Below are positions 2,945 to 47,262 of a stretch of 64,000 nt of DNA, one piece after another. The translations under genes were made by a program, and so were the position numbers. The stretch comes from Vineibacter terrae (lineage in GTDB: Bacteria > Pseudomonadota > Alphaproteobacteria > Reyranellales > Reyranellaceae). The notes beneath the pieces were generated by a model. The model had not been told where the DNA came from, made no database searches, and saw only the letters and a list, made by a program, of their open reading frames with translations. The stretch spans positions 1 through 64,000 of the forward strand of contig NZ_VDUZ01000024.1 of the NCBI RefSeq assembly GCF_008039615.1. The letters are read 5' to 3'. Each line of letters starts with the position of its first letter. Positions within the stretch are counted from its first letter, which is position 1.

Positions 2945-3077
2945 CCTCTCCCGCAAGCGGGAGAGGTCGGCGCGAAGCGCCGGGTAAGGGCTTCACGCAC
3001 AGCACCTCGTGTGAAGCCCTCACCTTCCCATCACGCTACGCGCGATGGGCCCCTTCCTCTCCCGCTTGCGGGAGAGG
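2945..3077. repeat. Composite palindromic element, copy 2 (upstream of CitE-like gene)
   Basis: This has the same architecture and orientation as the copy at 1875-2020: a CTCTCCCGC-type hairpin at each end and an internal region near GCGCGATGGGCCCC. It fills the gap between the CoA-transferase stop and the CitE-like start, so the CitE-like gene is flanked by two direct copies. Confidence 0.8.
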
Positions 3078-38335: not shown

Positions 38336-39285
38336 GACGGCACTCCCGGCGTCACCGGCGCCTCGCCGGCGCATGGCGTGCCGATGCGCATGATCTCCCA
38401 GCGCAGCGTGACGCCGGAGGCCTCATGCACGCGGCGGCGCACCTCCTCGCCCAGCGCCTCGATATCGCGCGCGGTGGCATCGCCCGTGTTGATCAGGAAA
38501 TTGCAGTGCTTCTCAGACACCTGCGCGCCGCCGATGCGCAAGCCGCGGCAGCCGGCGGCGTCGATCAGCCGCCAGGCCTTGTCGCCCGGCGGGTTGGTGA
38601 AGGTCGAGCCGCCGGTGCGGCTGCGCGGCTGGGTCTCGCCGCGGGCCCGGTCGATCTCGACGATCCGCGCGCCGATCTCCTCCGCCCGTCCCGGCCGGCC
38701 GCGCAAGACGGCGCCGGTGAAGATCACCGACTCGGGCACGGCGCAGTGGCGATAGGTGAAGCCCAGCTCGTCCGGCGTCAGGCGCAAGGCCCGGCCGCTC
38801 CGGTCGAGCGCCTCGGCATGCGCCACCGCGTCCTTCATCTCGCCGCCATAGGCGCCGGCGTTCATGCGCAACGCGCCGCCGATCGTGCCCGGCACGCCGC
38901 TCAGGAACTCCAGCCCGGCCAGGCCGTGGTCGCGCGCCGTCAGCGCCACATTGAGGTCGAGCGCGCCGGCGCCGGCGAACACCTGCTCGCCCTCGACACG
39001 GATGTCGGTGAAGCCGCGCAGCAGGCGGATGACCACGCCCGGGATGCCGCCGTCGCGCACCAGCAGGTTGGAGGCGACGCCCAGCACCGTGACCGGGATG
39101 TCGTCCGGCGTGCCGGCAAGGAAAGCCGCGAGGTCGTCGCGGTCGGCAGGACGGAAAAGAATCTCGGCCGGGCCGCCGGCGCGGAACCAGGTCACCGACG
39201 CCAACGGCGCGTTGGCCGTCAGCCGGCCGCGCACCGGCGGCAGGCGGTCGATCAGGTGCTGGGTTGTCCGCGCCACGGCGCTCAT
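38332..39285 (-). CDS. murB: UDP-N-acetylenolpyruvoylglucosamine reductase
   Basis: This 317-residue flavoenzyme reduces UDP-GlcNAc-enolpyruvate to UDP-MurNAc with NADPH. It shows [19 protein letters not shown], the FAD segment [34 protein letters not shown] and the catalytic Ser in [11 protein letters not shown], ending near [13 protein letters not shown]. It starts at an ATG overlapping the murC stop. Confidence 0.95.
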
Positions 39286-40748
39286 GCCGGCCGGCCCGGG
39301 GGCGTGATGGCGACCACGCGCGGCGCAGCCCGCTCCTGCGCCAGCTGCCGGATCTGGTCGGGCAGCGCATAGGCCCAGCCCGAGATGCTGCCGGCGCCCA
39401 GGCAGATCACGACGTCGCCAGGCCGCGCCACCGTCCACAGCAGCTCCGGCAATTCGCCCGGCGCCGCCAGCGGCATGACATGGGCATGGCCCGCCTGCTG
39501 GATGGCGCCGATCAGCATCTCCTTGTCGACGCCCGCGATCGGCGCCTCGCCGGCCGGATAGACATCGGCCACGATGACCAGGTCGGCATCGCCGAAGCAG
39601 CGCGCGAACTCGTCCCGCAGGTCGCGCAGTCGGGTGAAGCGGTGCGGCTGGACGACGGTGATGACCTGGCCGGAGCCGCCATAGGCCTGGCGCGCGGCCC
39701 GCAGCACGGCGGCGATCTCGACCGGGTGGTGGCCGTAGTCGTCGATCACGGTGATGCCGTGCGCCTCGCCGGTCTTGGTGAAGCGCCGCTTCACGCCGGA
39801 GAAGTTCGCCAGGCCGGTGCGGATGGTGTCGTCGTCGATGCCCATCTCGACCGCGACCGCGATGGCGGCCAGCGCGTTCTGCACGTTGTGCTGGCCGAAC
39901 ATCGGCAGCCGCATGCGCGGGATCAGGCGTGTCTCGTTGGCGGCGCGGTTGGTGACCACGACGTCGAAATCGGCGCCGTCGCGATCCAGCCGCAGGTCGA
40001 CGGCGCGCACATCGGCATTGGCGCCCAGGCCGTAGGTGACGATGCGGCGGTCCGACACGCGCGGGATGATCGCCTGCACCTCGGGATGGTCGAAGCACAG
40101 CACCGCGAAGCCGTAGAACGGGATGTTCTCGACGAAGGTCACGAAGGCGTCGCGCACCTTGTCGAAATCGCCGTAGTGGTCGAGGTGCTCGGGGTCGATG
40201 TTGGTGACGACGGCAATGGTTGCGGGCAAGCGCAGGAAGGAGCCGTCCGATTCATCGGACTCGACCACCATCCAGTCGCCGGCGCCCAGGCGCGCATTGG
40301 TGCCGTAGGCGTTGATGATGCCGCCGTTGATCACCGTCGGATCGATATGGGCGGCATCGAGCAGGGTCGCCACCATCGAGGTCGTGGTGGTCTTGCCATG
40401 GGTGCCGCCGACCGCGACCGACCATTTCAGGCGCATCAGCTCGCCCAGCATCTCGGCGCGCCGCACCACCGGCACGAAGCGGGCGCGGGCCGCCAGCACC
40501 TCGGGGTTGTCCTTCTTCACCGCCGACGACACGACCACGACCTCGGCGTTGCCCAGATTGTCGGCGCGGTGGCCGATCGCGACGCGGATGCCCAGCGCCG
40601 CCAGCCGTTTGCAGTTGGCGTTGTCGGCGACGTCGCTGCCCTGGACCTTGTAGCCGAGGTTGTGCAGCACCTCGGCGATGCCGGACATGCCGATGCCGCC
40701 GATGCCGACGAAGTGGATAAGACCGATGCTGAGCGGCAAGGCCCTCAT
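39282..40748 (-). CDS. murC: UDP-N-acetylmuramate-L-alanine ligase
   Basis: This 488-residue Mur ligase adds the first stem residue. It has the MurC-type nucleotide fold start [21 protein letters not shown]-binding [42 protein letters not shown] and [11 protein letters not shown]. The ATG overlaps the murG stop (ATGA), so murC translation depends on ribosomes passing through the palindromic element lying in the murG 3' end. Confidence 0.96.
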
Positions 40749-42025
40749 GCGGCGGCTCCTGTCTCTTTCCTTCCCCCGGAGGGGGAAGGTGGCGCGGAGC
40801 GCCGGAAGGGGGATGTCGGTATGGATTCTACGTCTCCAGAAGAAATCGATTCGGATCGAGCATCCCCCTTCCGCCCCTTCGGGGCACCTTCCCCCTCCGG
40901 GGGAAGGTAGGGGTGTGCTGCCGACGACTGCCGCGCAATCAGGTCGACGACCAGGTCGGCCAGATCGCGGGCGGCATCGGGGCGGCCGGCGGCGCGCGCC
41001 GCGGCCGCCATCGCCGCCAGCCGGTCGGGCGCACCGAACAGCGTCTCGAGATGCGCCCGCAGCGCCTCGGCCGTGAAGCGCTCGTGCGGCAGCAGGATGG
41101 AAGCGCCCACCTCGTCGATCGCCTTGGCGTTCGCGCGTTGATGGTCCTCTGTTGCGTGGGGGAAGGGGACGAGGACCGATGGCCGACCGGAAGTTGTCAA
41201 TTCGGCCACCGTCGACGCTCCCGCCCTCGCGACAACGAGGTGGGCCCCGGCCAGTCGCGCCGGGAAGTCGGAGAAGAAGGTCGCGCACTCGGCATCGATG
41301 CCGCGCTCGGTGTAGAAGGCGCGCACGCGCGCCAGGTCCTCGGCGCGGCACTGCTGCACCAGCTGCAGACGCCGGCGCAGGGCTTCCGGCAGCGCCGCGA
41401 TGGCCTCGGGGATGACGATGCCGAACGAGGCTGCGCCCTGGCTGCCGCCGATCACCACCATGCGGATCTCGCCGTCCGGCGTCGGCGCCTGGTAGGGCGC
41501 ATCGCGCAGCGCGCGCACGGCATCGCGCACGGGATTGCCCACCAGCCGCACGCGCGGATCGCCGGCGGCCAGGTGACGCACCGTGCCGAAGGCCGTCGCG
41601 ATCATGGTGCGGCGTCCCACCACCAGCCGGTTGGCGCGGCCCAGCACGGCGTTCTGCTCGTGCACCAGGGTGGGCAGGCGCCGCAGGCGCGCCGCCAGCA
41701 TCGCCGGCACGCTGGCGTAGCCGCCGAAGCCGACCACGGCTGCCGGCGCCAGGCCACCCAGCAGCGCGAAGGACTGCAGCACGCCGACGCCCAGCGCCGC
41801 GACATTGCCGATGCGGTTGGCGATGCCGCCGGCACCGGGGCTGCCGGCGCGGACGCGATGCGCCGGCAAGGCAGCGAGCGCGCCCTGCCATTTGTGGCCG
41901 CGATCATCCGTGATCAGCGCCAGCGGCACGCCACGGCGCGCCAGCTCGCCGGCCAGGGACTCGGCGGGAAACACGTGGCCGCCGGTGCCGCCGGCGGCCA
42001 GGATCACGGGGCGGGAGGCGCTCAC
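40745..42025 (-). CDS. murG: MurG glycosyltransferase with a repeat-derived C-terminal extension
   Basis: This 426-residue enzyme adds GlcNAc to lipid I to form lipid II at the inner face of the membrane. Family motifs are [65 protein letters not shown] and [14 protein letters not shown]. The catalytic core ends near [15 protein letters not shown]. The next 50 or so residues ([20 protein letters not shown] ... [14 protein letters not shown]) come from a palindromic element read in frame. Normal MurG is about 360-370 residues. The start is a GTG overlapping the ftsW stop. Confidence 0.94.
40769..40908. repeat. Palindromic element inside the murG coding end
   Basis: It has the same composite design as the element between murD and mraY: a small hairpin at each end (CCTTCCCCCGGAGGGGGAAG), GGCGCGGAGCGCC beside it, and a mirrored CCCCTTCGGGG near the other end. 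On the minus strand it has no stop codon in the murG frame and is translated. Confidence 0.85.
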
Positions 42026-43149
42026 GACGCTTCCCCCAGACCGGCGCGCTCGCGGGTCAGCGCCAGCATCATGCCCACCGCCAGCGCCATCGCCACCGCC
42101 GACGAGCCGCCATAGGAGATGAACGGCAAGGTCATGCCCTTGGCCGGCATGAGCTGCACCGTCGAGGCCATGTTGATGAAAGCCTGCAGCCCGAACTGGA
42201 TCACCAGCCCGGCCGCGGCCAGCATGATGAACAGGCTGGTCTCGTTGGCGATGCGCGACATCGACCGCAACGTGATGAAGGCGAACAACAGCAGCACGAT
42301 CAGGCAGACGATCAGCCCGAACTCCTCGCCGGCCACGGCCATCACGAAGTCCGTGTGCGCGTCCGGCAGCTGTGCCTTCACCGTGCCCTCGCCCGGCCCG
42401 CGCCCGAACAGGCCGCCGTTCATGAACGCCTCAAGCGCGGTGTTGACCTGGTAATTCTCGCCGGCGTCGGGATTGATGAAGCGCTCGATGCGGGCCTGCA
42501 CGTGCGAGAAGGTCAGAAAGGCGCCGACGAGGCCGGCCGCGGCCAGGCCCGTGCCCATCACCGCCAGCCAGATCGGCAGGCCGGCGAGGAAGAACTGCGC
42601 CGCCCACACCACCGTCACCACCACCGACATGCCGAGATCGGGCTGCATCAGCAGCATGCCCAGCACGGCGGCGAACAGCACCGTGGACAGCAGGAAGCCG
42701 GGGAAGCGCGGATTGAGCTTCTTCTGCGCGAACAGCCAGGCCGAGATCACCGCCAGGCTGGGCTTGACGAACTCCGAGGGCTGCACCGTGCCGAAGCCGG
42801 GCAGCGATATCCATCGCCGCGCGCCCTTGATCTCGGTGCCGACCACCAGCGTGGCGGCAAGCGCCGCCAGGCCGACCGCGAACACGACCAGCGACAGCCG
42901 CCGCACCATGCGCGGCGGCGCCAGCGAGATGGCCAGCATGACGGCGAGCGCAACGGGCAGGAACAGCAGCTGGCGGCGCACGAAATGGAACGAGTCGGCA
43001 CCGATGCGCTCGGCCGCCGGCGGCGACGCCGCCATGGTCAGCATCACGCCCACGCCCATGATCAGCAGCACGGCGCCCAGCGACCAGCGGTCGACCGTCC
43101 ACCACCAGCGACCGACGACCGAGTTGTCGTTGCGCGGCACTGTGATCAT
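42022..43149 (-). CDS. ftsW: Septal peptidoglycan polymerase FtsW
   Basis: This 375-residue SEDS-family membrane protein has about ten hydrophobic segments. It has the SEDS motifs GARRWISLPGFGTVQPSEFV, LLMQPDLGMSVVV, VQARIERFINPDAGENYQ, PDAHTDFVMAVAGEEFGL and the C-terminal GMTLPFISYGGSSAVAMAL. Lying between murD and murG is the standard FtsW position (RodA lies elsewhere). It works with FtsI at the septum. The ATG overlaps the murD stop. Confidence 0.95.
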   Translation of the reverse strand: MITVPRNDNSVVGRWWWTVDRWSLGAVLLIMGVGVMLTMAASPPAAERIGADSFHFVRRQLLFLPVALAVMLAISLAPPRMVRRLSLVVFAVGLAALAATLVVGTEIKGARRWISLPGFGTVQPSEFVKPSLAVISAWLFAQKKLNPRFPGFLLSTVLFAAVLGMLLMQPDLGMSVVVTVVWAAQFFLAGLPIWLAVMGTGLAAAGLVGAFLTFSHVQARIERFINPDAGENYQVNTALEAFMNGGLFGRGPGEGTVKAQLPDAHTDFVMAVAGEEFGLIVCLIVLLLFAFITLRSMSRIANETSLFIMLAAAGLVIQFGLQAFINMASTVQLMPAKGMTLPFISYGGSSAVAMALAVGMMLALTRERAGLGEAS

Positions 43150-44537
43150 GCGGCACCTCCGGTCTCGACCGTTGCACCGGGCAGGGCCCGCGCCAGGGTG
43201 CGGAAGGCATCGCCGCGCACCTCGAAGTTCGGCCACTGGTCGTAGGAAGCGCAGGCCGGCGACAGCAGCACGACGGCGTCCCGCCGCCGCTCGCGCTGCG
43301 CCATTTCGTGCGCCTGCTGCAACGCCGTCTTCAGATCGCCGCTGCGGGTATAAGGTATCTTGCCTTCCAGTGTGACGGCGAAGGCGTCGCTGGAGATGCC
43401 GATCAGGAAGGCATGCGCGACGCGGCCGAACAGCGGCTCCAGTGGCACGATGCCTTCCGCCTTCGGCGTGCCGCCGACCAGCCAATAGATGGTGTCGTAG
43501 GCCGCCAGCGCCTTCTCCGTGGCGTCGGCGTTGGTTGCCTTGCTGTCGTTGATATAGACGATGCCGTCGACCACCGCGACCCGCTCCTGGCGATGGGCCA
43601 GCCCGGGATAGGTGGCCAGCCCCTGCGCGATCGCCGCGATCGGAAGGCCCAGCGCGTGGCAGGCGGCATAGGCGCAGGCAGCGTTCTGCCAGTTGTGGGC
43701 GCCGGGAAGGTTCTTGATCGGCCTCAGGTCGATCTCGGCGCCGGTGCAGGCATCGCGCAGGCGGCCGCCCTGCACCGACACGCCGGCGCCGTCGGCGCCG
43801 CCGACCGTCACGGTCAGCAGGGTGCCCGGTCCGCCGGCCAGGCCGGCGGCAGTCTGGCGCGAGGGCCCGTCGTCGATGCCGACCACGGCCACGTCGCCTT
43901 CCTGCTGGTTGTCGAAGACATGGCGCTTGGCGGCGACATAGCCGGCAAGATCGCCGTGACGATCGATATGGTCGGGCGTGATGTTGAGCCACACCGCGAC
44001 GCTGCAGCGCAGGCTCTGCACCAGCTCGAGCTGGAAGGAGGACAGCTCCAGCACGTAGACGCCGTCGCGGCCCAGCGGCCGGAAGTCGAGCGCGGCGGGC
44101 CCGAAATTGCCACCGATATCGCGCTGGATGCCAGCGCTCTTCAGGATATGGCCGATCAGCGCCGTCGTCGTCGACTTGCCATTGGTGCCAGTGATGCCGA
44201 CGACGCGCGCCAGCGGCCGGCTGCGGGCCAGCAGCTCGATGTCGCCGATCACCGGCTTGCCGGCGGTACGCGCCGCCAGCGCTGCCGGATGCGGCCTGGG
44301 AAAGGTGTGCGGGATGCCGGGGCTGAGCACCAGCGCGTCCCAGCGGTGCCAGTCCAGCGACTCGGGGTCTGCCAGCGCGAAGCCGTGGCTCTGCGCCTGG
44401 GCACGGCGCGTGGCGTCGTCGTCCCAGACCACGACATCGACCTGCGCCGCCTGCAGGGCGCGCGCCGCCGCCAGCCCGCTGCGCGCGAGCCCCAGCACGG
44501 CAAACCGCGTTCCCTGCAAGGACGACAGGTCGATCAT
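43146..44537 (-). CDS. murD: UDP-N-acetylmuramoyl-L-alanine-D-glutamate ligase
   Basis: This 463-residue Mur ligase has FAVLGLARSGLAAARAL, the ATP loop VGITGTNGKSTTTALIGH, NITPDHIDRHGD and YINDSKATNADATEKAL, with the MurD-type end VLLSPACASYDQWPNFEVRG. It adds D-Glu to the stem peptide in the cytoplasm. The mraY-murD gap is one of the few wide gaps in the cluster, filled by a palindromic element. Confidence 0.95.
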   Translation of the reverse strand: MIDLSSLQGTRFAVLGLARSGLAAARALQAAQVDVVVWDDDATRRAQAQSHGFALADPESLDWHRWDALVLSPGIPHTFPRPHPAALAARTAGKPVIGDIELLARSRPLARVVGITGTNGKSTTTALIGHILKSAGIQRDIGGNFGPAALDFRPLGRDGVYVLELSSFQLELVQSLRCSVAVWLNITPDHIDRHGDLAGYVAAKRHVFDNQQEGDVAVVGIDDGPSRQTAAGLAGGPGTLLTVTVGGADGAGVSVQGGRLRDACTGAEIDLRPIKNLPGAHNWQNAACAYAACHALGLPIAAIAQGLATYPGLAHRQERVAVVDGIVYINDSKATNADATEKALAAYDTIYWLVGGTPKAEGIVPLEPLFGRVAHAFLIGISSDAFAVTLEGKIPYTRSGDLKTALQQAHEMAQRERRRDAVVLLSPACASYDQWPNFEVRGDAFRTLARALPGATVETGGAA

Positions 44538-44560
44538 TTCTAGTTACCTCAACGCGTTTC

Positions 44561-44687
44561 CCTCCCCCACGCCGTGGGGGAGGTGGCCGAAGGCCGGAGG
44601 GGGAGCCCACGTGGTCTTCGTCACTGAGACCACGTCAGCTCCCCTCCGCCCCTTCGGGGCACCTCCCCACGCTGGAGCGTGGGGAGG
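44561..44687. repeat. Palindromic element between mraY and murD
   Basis: Small terminal hairpins (CCTCCCCCACGCCGTGGGGG and ACCTCCCCACGCTGG...) bracket GGCCGAAGGCC, a central dyad CACGTGGTCTTCGTCACTGA / GAGACCACGT, and CCCCTTCGGGG. The architecture matches the element in murG. Here it is intergenic and directly precedes murD on the transcript. Confidence 0.85.
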
Positions 44688-44716
44688 AATTTTGGTGCTT
44701 GGCCTCATGCCCCGCC

Positions 44717-45808
44717 TCACCGCAGCTTGAGGGTGGCCAGGCCGACGATGCCCAGCACGATGGCGATGATCCAGAATCGAATCACGATCGTCGGTTCGGC
44801 CCAACCCTTTTTCTCGAAGTGATGGTGCAGCGGCGCCATGCGGAAGACACGCCTGCCGGTGAGCTTGAAGGACATCACCTGCACCACGACCGACGCGGTC
44901 TCCAGCACGAACAGGCCGCCGACGATGGCCAGCACGATCTCGTGCTTGATGACGACGGCGATGGCGCCCAGCGCGCCGCCCATGGCCAGCGAGCCGGTGT
45001 CACCCATGAACACCATGGCCGGCGGGGCGTTGAACCACAGAAAGCCCAGCCCACCGCCGATCAGGGCGGCGCAGATGATGATCAGCTCGCCGGCGCCGGG
45101 CACGGCGTGGATCTGCAGGTAGTTCGTCAGCACGGCGTTGCCGACGATGTAGCTGATCACACCGAACACACCGGTGGCGATGATCACCGGGCCGATCGCC
45201 AGGCCGTCCAGGCCGTCGGTGAGGTTCACCGCGTTGGACGCGCCGACCATCACCAGGGTGGCGAAGAGAAGGAAGCCGACCACGCCAATCGGTATCAGCA
45301 CCGACTTCAGGAACGGCACCGCGAGCTGGAAGCGCAGCCCCGGCGGCGAGCCCTCGGCGATGAAGGCAGCGGCGATGACGGAAAAGACGACGGCGACCGT
45401 GAGCTTGAGCCGGCCGGGCAGGCCTCGCGTGTTGCGCTTGCTGACCTTGAGGTAGTCGTCGACGAAGCCGATGCCGCCGAAGCCCAGGGTCAGAAGCAGC
45501 ACGATCCAGACATAGCGGTTGCGCAGATCGGCCCACAGCAGGGTCGCCACCACCAGCGCGATCAGGATCAGGAACCCGCCCATGGTGGGCGTGCCCTTCT
45601 TGGTCAGCAGGTGGCTTTCCGGCCCGTCGTCGCGGATCGGCTGGCCCTTGCCCTGCTTGCTGCGCAGCCACGCGATCAGCCGGCCGCCGAACATGAACGA
45701 CAGGAGCAGCGCCGTCAGGAAGGCCCCGCCGGAGCGGAACGTGATGTAGCGAAACAGATTGAGCGGGGTGAACTGATCGGCCAGCGGTGCCAGCAGGTGA
45801 AACAGCAC
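44717..45808 (-). CDS. mraY: Phospho-MurNAc-pentapeptide transferase
   Basis: This 363-residue integral membrane enzyme (about ten spans) transfers phospho-MurNAc-pentapeptide to undecaprenyl phosphate, forming lipid I. It has [21 protein letters not shown] with the catalytic Asp pair, [31 protein letters not shown] and [20 protein letters not shown]. It begins with GTG, 2 bp after murF, with GAGGAG upstream. Confidence 0.96.
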
Positions 45809-45810
45809 GG

Positions 45811-47262
45811 TCAGCTCCTCCCCGGACCGCGTGCCTGAGTCACCTCGCCCAGCGCGATGACCGCCTCGACAATCACCTTCATCTTGGAGCCCAGCGATCC
45901 CTTCACGGCCACCACATCCCCTGCCTTCAGAGCCTCGACCACACGCTGCGCCAGGCGCGAGGAATCCGGCGCATGCGCCCCACGCAGCCGCGGCGGCAAC
46001 GCCCGGTGCAACGCCGCCATGGCAGTGCCGGCCGTGAACACCACATCGGCGCCGCTCGCCTCGACGTCGGGCGCGAGCGCGGCATGCAACGCCGCGCTGT
46101 CGGCCCCGAGCTCCAGCATGTCGCCCAGCACCAGCACGCGCCGGCCGCCCGGACCGGGCCGGGCCGCCGTCAGCAGCGCCAGCATGGCGCGCACCGAGGG
46201 CGGGCTGGCGTTGTAGCTCTCGTCGATCAGCTCGACGGTGCCGGCAGCCAGCGCCACGCGCCGACGCGCGCCACGGCCGGCCGGCGCCGTGACGCCGGCC
46301 AGGGAAGCCGCCGCCGCGTCGAGGCCGGCGCCCAGCGCAACCGCCGCCGCCAGCGTCGCCAGGCTGTTCAGCACCCAGTGCCGGCCCGGCGCGCCGAGGC
46401 GATAGCGGAGTTCCTGTCCCTGCGCCAGCGCCACGACGGTGCTGCCGGTGTCGTCAAGGTCGCAGTCCAGCAGACGGAACGCGGCGGCAGGGTGCTCCCC
46501 GAACGTCACGTGCTGCGTCACCCCTGCCGCTGCCGCCAGATCCGCCAAGCGAAAGAAGCGTGGGTTGTCGCGCGGCAAGATGGCGGTGCCGCCGGTCATC
46601 CCCGCGAAGATCTTCGCCTTCTCCTCGGCAATCGCATCGACGGTGCCGAAATATTCGATATGGACGGCCTCGACCGTGGTGATGATGCCGACATGCGGCC
46701 GGACCTGCCGCGCCAGCGGCTCGATCTCGCCGGGATGGTTGGTGCCGATCTCGCACACGGCGTATCGCGCATCCTCGGGCAGGCGGGACAGGGTCAGCGG
46801 CACGCCGATATGGTTGTTGTGGCTGGCGTCGGCGGCGTGGGTCTTGCCTTGCGCCGTGAGCACGTGGCGCAGCGCCTCCTTGGTGCTCGTCTTGCCGACA
46901 CTGCCGGTGACGGCCACGATGCGCGCGCTGGCGCGTGCGCGTGCCGCCTGCCCCAGGCTCTGCAGGCCGCGCAGCGTGTCCTCGACCAGCAGCAGCGGAC
47001 CTTCCGACGCGTTGCTGCTGCCCAGGTCGGGATCGCTGACCATCGCCGCGGCCGCGCCCTTGGCGAAGGCCGCGTCGATGAAGCCATGCCCGTCCATCGT
47101 CTCGCCCTTGAGGGCGATAAAAAGGTCTCCCGGCCGCAGCGTGCGGGTGTCGATCGAGACGCCTGTCGCGCTCCAGTCCGAGCCACCCAGGATGCGCGCG
47201 CCGCTGGCGGCGGCGGCATCGGTGCCGGTCCACAGAGGATCGCGGAACGCCATGATGGTCAT
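45811..47262 (-). CDS. murF: UDP-MurNAc-tripeptide:D-Ala-D-Ala ligase
   Basis: This 483-residue Mur ligase completes the pentapeptide. It shows [19 protein letters not shown], the ATP loop [49 protein letters not shown] and [17 protein letters not shown]. The start overlaps the murE stop (ATGA); a second in-frame ATG (MAFRD) lies 3 codons later. Confidence 0.95.

Follow-up and report, generated by a model that had tools for sequence, protein, structure and literature searches.

The end of murG in Vineibacter terrae raises the question of how a palindromic repeat comes to be read as part of an essential enzyme. In the window, the 64,000-nt stretch of DNA analyzed here, the murG reading frame (40745..42025, minus strand) encodes 426 amino acids from a GTG start and closes with a TGA stop at 40745-40747. 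We determined that its 3′ portion holds a composite palindrome of a repeat that we call family A (40769..40907, minus strand), a 139-nt element with a double-hairpin shape, based on an alignment of 22 copies, the covariance model R1, and the fold. By hand count from the GTG at 42025, it corresponds to MurG residues 373-419. The preliminary description had placed a palindrome inside the murG frame, and it is present there, ending at 40907 rather than 40908. R1 scores this copy at 149 bits, with the copy itself being part of the model. Folded in a 186-nt context, the element reaches -111 kcal/mol, a value equaled by 0 of 200 shuffles (z -7.4). The arms are 66 nt long and 79% complementary; they reach slightly past the element and constitute terminal inverted repeats, a trait of MITEs. 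Across 40769-40907 the MurG frame runs without a stop, both in the ORF list and in the sequence, as had been claimed. The DNA at 40769-40907 is a family-A repeat copy read in frame as the MurG tail, and the tail is presumably translated. The kinship proposed with an intergenic element at 44561-44687 also holds, since R1 matches a related composite palindrome at 44567..44682 (minus strand; 47.5 bits, E 1.7e-8), located between murD and mraY according to the ORF list. R1 also finds two weaker relatives, at 1876-2018 (E 0.002) and 2945-3077 (E 2e-10), which flank a gene for an HpcH/HpaI-type aldolase/lyase (Pfam). An Rfam identity for the element was rejected, as the 11 matches in 39000-46000 are all miRNA models under gathering scores.

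Pfam identifies Glyco_transf_28 and Glyco_tran_28_C in MurG, with the final domain ending at residue 353. In the AlphaFold model the core is confident and residues 374-376 and 378-426 have pLDDT below 50; the tail is thus predicted to be disordered. The next gene, murC (39282..40748, minus strand; Mur_ligase domains in Pfam), begins with an ATG at 40746-40748 that overlaps the murG stop. An AGGAG (40756..40760, minus strand) lies in the final codons of MurG, past the element and ahead of the stop, and is probably the murC ribosome-binding site, judging from its sequence. Most relatives have a GGAG-type motif at a similar distance before murC. At 30/30 junctions (our genome and 29 relatives) murG and murC overlap as ATGA or GTGA, with an identical stop-to-motif spacing of 30 nt in all 30. 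Because every junction has the overlap, it is ancestral, and the element therefore entered just upstream and left it intact. The preliminary description had murC overlapping a new stop; the overlap was indeed kept, but it is not new. We also considered 80 named alphaproteobacterial loci with a strict motif, 48 of which lacked the motif and were dropped. MurC is next to murG in 28 of the remaining 32, and the overlap at the usual spacing occurs in 19 of these 28. Among the matches listed for the V. terrae genome, murG is the only full-length one.

The V. terrae genome (G000) is an 8.76-Mb draft in 135 contigs; G001, G002, and G003 are its congeners. A BLAST search with the murG copy returned 108 matches in G000, counting both strands and fragments, from which 41 records were built (22 full-length and 19 partial or clustered). 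Since the query was the in-frame murG copy itself, this list is seeded with that case. R1 returned at least 146 matches over both strands. The genome contains at least 22 near-full-length copies with sharp ends, and the 22 that were aligned run from CCTTCC or CTTCC to GGAAGG. Over these 22 copies 98.8% of pair cells are paired and the arms are nearly invariant; with arms that hardly vary, covariation was discarded as evidence either for or against an RNA role. Each of the six frames is open in 55-86% of the 22 copies vs. approximately 33% in base shuffles. An open frame therefore needs no selection, and frame openness was not taken as a sign of it. Hydrophilicity was likewise rejected as the reason for the frame, with GRAVY means of -0.68 to -0.99 over the six frames. 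By eye, the family-A flanks show no constant target-site duplication. Family A is probably mobile. In six copies (L003, L004, L005, L006, L012, and L018) one flank is alike (CATCCCGAG...GTGAT), as if they were nested in another repeat.

The preliminary description had proposed a search for other in-frame copies in the genome, and four were found beyond murG. For this, a home-made codon score, trained on the window and applied with self-chosen thresholds (0.2 per codon, lead 0.1), was run on the 41 copies and fragments, and the frames were then read. Three copies have a coding signal on both sides and one open frame: one in a UvrD helicase, between DEYQDTN and VGDDDQS (G000:C42:65030-65169), one inside the gene of an AcrB-type RND pump (G000:C29:98387-98528), and one in the linker of a dual ABC ATPase (G000:C15:139031-139169). 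The fourth forms the tail of a LivM-type branched-chain amino acid permease (G000:C65:42630-42768), where the stop overlaps the next start as ATGA. Pfam domains in these proteins are UvrD-helicase, ACR_tran, two stretches of ABC_tran, and BPD_transp_2, respectively. The UvrD insert site corresponds to PcrA residue 243, with PcrA aligning up to 242 before the insert and from 244 after it; E. coli UvrD also aligns on both sides. This UvrD gene is the only match in the genome at E 1e-60. Among these five cases, a single peptide frame is used over the whole element in MurG, UvrD, and ABC, from LPPEGEG to PSPSGGR. The RND protein begins in that frame and leaves it near the end, and LivM enters the element in another frame before joining it. 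A possible sixth in-frame copy, L169 (L169:1564-1765; G000:C5:97263-97464), lies near the C-terminus of an unannotated protein that ends soon after the element. Two loci flagged as coding on both sides were not counted, L167 for a stop inside the element and L170 because the frame ends before it. Also not counted were L239, L241, and L250, in which the frame crosses the element and meets a stop beyond it with no clear downstream coding, and L261, which has a stop inside the element.

We then compared MurG in our genome and 29 others, with the first residue matched as the starting point for lengths. The protein has 425 residues in V. terrae, 456 in G003, 413 in G002, and 375 in G001. Outside the genus, the count is 366 in a second genus (four genomes), 357-373 in a third, and 369 in a representative of another family. 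In 27 of the 29 other genomes the length is 357-375. Extended tails are found in three of the four genus genomes, and G001 and the other-genus members read have empty sites. Aligning MurG of close relatives, as the preliminary description had advised, placed the tail's absence in one of three congeners and in the other genera. A conserved tail of unrelated sequence in all relatives, which would have spoken against it, was not found; the relatives share no conserved tail. Since these genomes lack the tail and the DNA in question is a repeat present in many copies, the simplest origin is an insertion, which supports the earlier claim that such elements can enter at the end of an essential gene. 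In the tail of G003 there is another palindrome, one that matches many places in each of the four genus genomes, and beside it is a piece resembling the first family-A hairpin. The start of the G002 tail, approximately 39 nt, weakly matches five places in G000 (82-87%) and none besides itself in G002, so that this insert is a weak and degenerate repeat. The three extended tails, unlike as they are, all end on the ancestral murG/murC overlap.

Other repeats also occupy the same sites as family A in the remaining genes. The G002 UvrD loop contains a different palindrome that has 15 further occurrences in G002, not all of them complete. The RND loop of G002 contains a half-repeat for which G002 gives 59 matches and G000 gives 53 (E <= 0.05, self and both strands included); its fold is no better than shuffles (z -0.6), and the insert was recognized by sequence repetition only. 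The G002 LivM tail is made of another palindrome (36 matches in G002, 44 in G000) and also ends in ATGA. G002 therefore holds other repeats at four of the five in-frame sites of G000, namely UvrD, RND, LivM, and, weakly, MurG. In the G002 ABC linker, overlapping match coordinates leave no room for an insert, and this site is empty. The UvrD site is empty in G003, which has a short loop, and in eight other genomes, while the G001 match stops short of it. Empty sites are also found for RND in G001, G003 (short loop), and five others, and for LivM in G001. In the other repeat families, 1 of 22 copies (14 from G002, 8 from G003) is in frame inside a gene. This is L301:1198-1313 of G002, located in the Ala-Pro linker of a protein that resembles pyruvate dehydrogenase E2 by sequence.

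The sites common to G000 and G002 could each descend from one ancestral repeat that was later replaced, through nested insertion or recombination, rather than from separate insertions. We give this slightly less than even odds: the four shared sites, the six family-A copies with similar flanks, and the family-A-like hairpin beside another repeat in G003 murG are consistent with it, but by eye the family-A copies in UvrD, RND, and ABC of G000 have no leftover of a second repeat next to them.

Family A does not behave in this way everywhere. By the same codon-score test, 0 of 82 copies in G001, G002, G003, and G007 are in frame inside a gene. These 82, among the matches listed, comprise 47 from G003, 26 from G007, 5 from G001, and 4 from G002; six listed places (five in G007, one in G003) and all listed G011 places are outside the set. 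In six of the 82, the two flanks are coding in a single frame, but stops occur in the element or close to it. The inside-gene rate of 3/41 in G000 vs. 0/82 gives p ~0.035 by hand calculation, with the G000 list seeded by the in-frame murG copy. Given the 0/82, survival in frame is not a fixed trait of family A. With the murG case set aside, the chance of two further tails being in frame is about 1 in 9 by hand estimate, and frame keeping could be luck, copies being open in most frames. In G007, of the second genus, the element is shorter, at 119-122 nt in 26 copies (L271-L295), with at least 150 matches.

The element could instead be kept for its RNA, as a murG-murC hairpin that tunes mRNA stability or murC translation, with the protein tail as a by-product. 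The very stable fold of the murG element and its position directly upstream of the murC ribosome-binding site would fit such a role, as would the location of most copies examined outside genes or at gene edges. However, three copies are inside genes, where there is no gene junction, and the MurG inserts of the sister species are unequal in fold compared to shuffles, with z -8.4 in G003 vs. -1.9 in G002. We consider an RNA role unlikely. An ancestral origin of the long tails, with loss elsewhere, is highly improbable. Three of the four genus members do have long MurG, and so do 3 of the 28 named alphaproteobacterial loci further away (384-396 residues when counted from GGTGGH, a comparison of lengths only), but the three genus tails align poorly with each other and match repeats elsewhere: family A for G000, another family present in four genomes for G003, and, weakly, G000 sequences for G002. 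An assembly or sequencing artefact hiding a stop or frameshift has the least chance of all, even in a draft of 135 contigs, as five G000 genes read through the element and G002 has in-frame repeats at the same places.

The best account is an insertion of family A at the end of murG that was kept as a tolerated in-frame tail. Including mobility, translation, and harmlessness, we put its probability at roughly 0.8. It builds on the repeat family, the open in-frame reading, the empty sites, the other repeats at the same sites, and the kept overlap. The mobile double-hairpin repeat would have inserted where the final codons of murG vary, on the upstream side of the ribosome-binding site of murC. 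Its survival would be due to the lack of a stop in the MurG frame, to a net length that leaves the native murG stop on the murC start, and to the position of a disordered tail at the MurG end, where it is likely harmless. Coupling between murG and murC may select the reading frame. The same tolerance would lead to the in-frame copies in the UvrD loop, RND loop, ABC linker, and permease tail, with repeated insertions at tolerant protein positions having to fit the frame and, where a gene ends, to respect its overlap with the following gene. In the sister species, other repeat families would have entered at the same positions. It seems that bacteria of this genus go on acquiring protein pieces made of repeats at a small number of tolerant sites. 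More tentatively, the MurG tail, UvrD loop, RND loop, and LivM tail may be exchange sites, where repeat families replace each other in frame between species while overlaps are kept; selfish repeats might then be a running supply of disordered segments, essential genes included.

Should the tails be translated, palindromic repeats can lengthen an essential enzyme by approximately 46 residues in bacteria only distantly related to Rickettsia. One MurG site is seen in four states across the four genus genomes, a natural series in which to ask if the tails are neutral, have a regulatory role, or bring a benefit, and to what degree the overlapping start of the next gene restricts the frame.

The Rickettsia palindromic elements are described as palindromes of ~150 bp found in frame in genes, with several families per genome and a conserved peptide each (PMC10969869, PMC3733652). 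Family A resembles them as a 139-nt palindrome with a long hairpin that is in frame in the conserved genes for MurG, UvrD, RND, ABC, and LivM in G000, with 0/82 in four other genomes. It differs in its host, which is of another lineage with an 8.76-Mb genome, and in that the element is open in most of its frames. The closest MurG matches that carry a name come from Reyranella-type MAGs rather than Rickettsia. The likeness to Rickettsia that had been suggested stands at the level of mechanism, with three copies inside conserved genes and one at another gene end. Compared by description, family A appears to work like the Rickettsia in-frame palindromes without being one. The GTAG- and CGTC-tagged REPs, according to PMC3733652, are 20-40 bp palindromes with the tag at one end; they are mostly intergenic, with some in frame inside genes, including UvrD/Rep helicases, and different REPs occur at about one site in Xanthomonas recB. 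Here too, family A and other repeats are found in UvrD, with different repeats at the same site. In contrast, the aligned family-A ends lack either tag, the element is a 139-nt composite rather than 20-40 bp, and one species pair (G000 and G002) shares four sites. The enterobacterial RU elements are small mobile repeats with open frames fused to genes (PMC2759123); by description family A is similar in its fused open frame, and the lineage differs. None of the titles and abstract openings searched describes family A, the murG insert, or Reyranella repeats. In-frame repeat insertion is already known from Rickettsia and from REPs, UvrD/Rep helicases included (PMC3733652). What this case contributes is a composite family from a different lineage, its position at the end of an essential gene whose overlap was kept, and a same-site pattern in four genes. 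The apparent same-site exchange and the kept gene overlap are the unusual features of this system.
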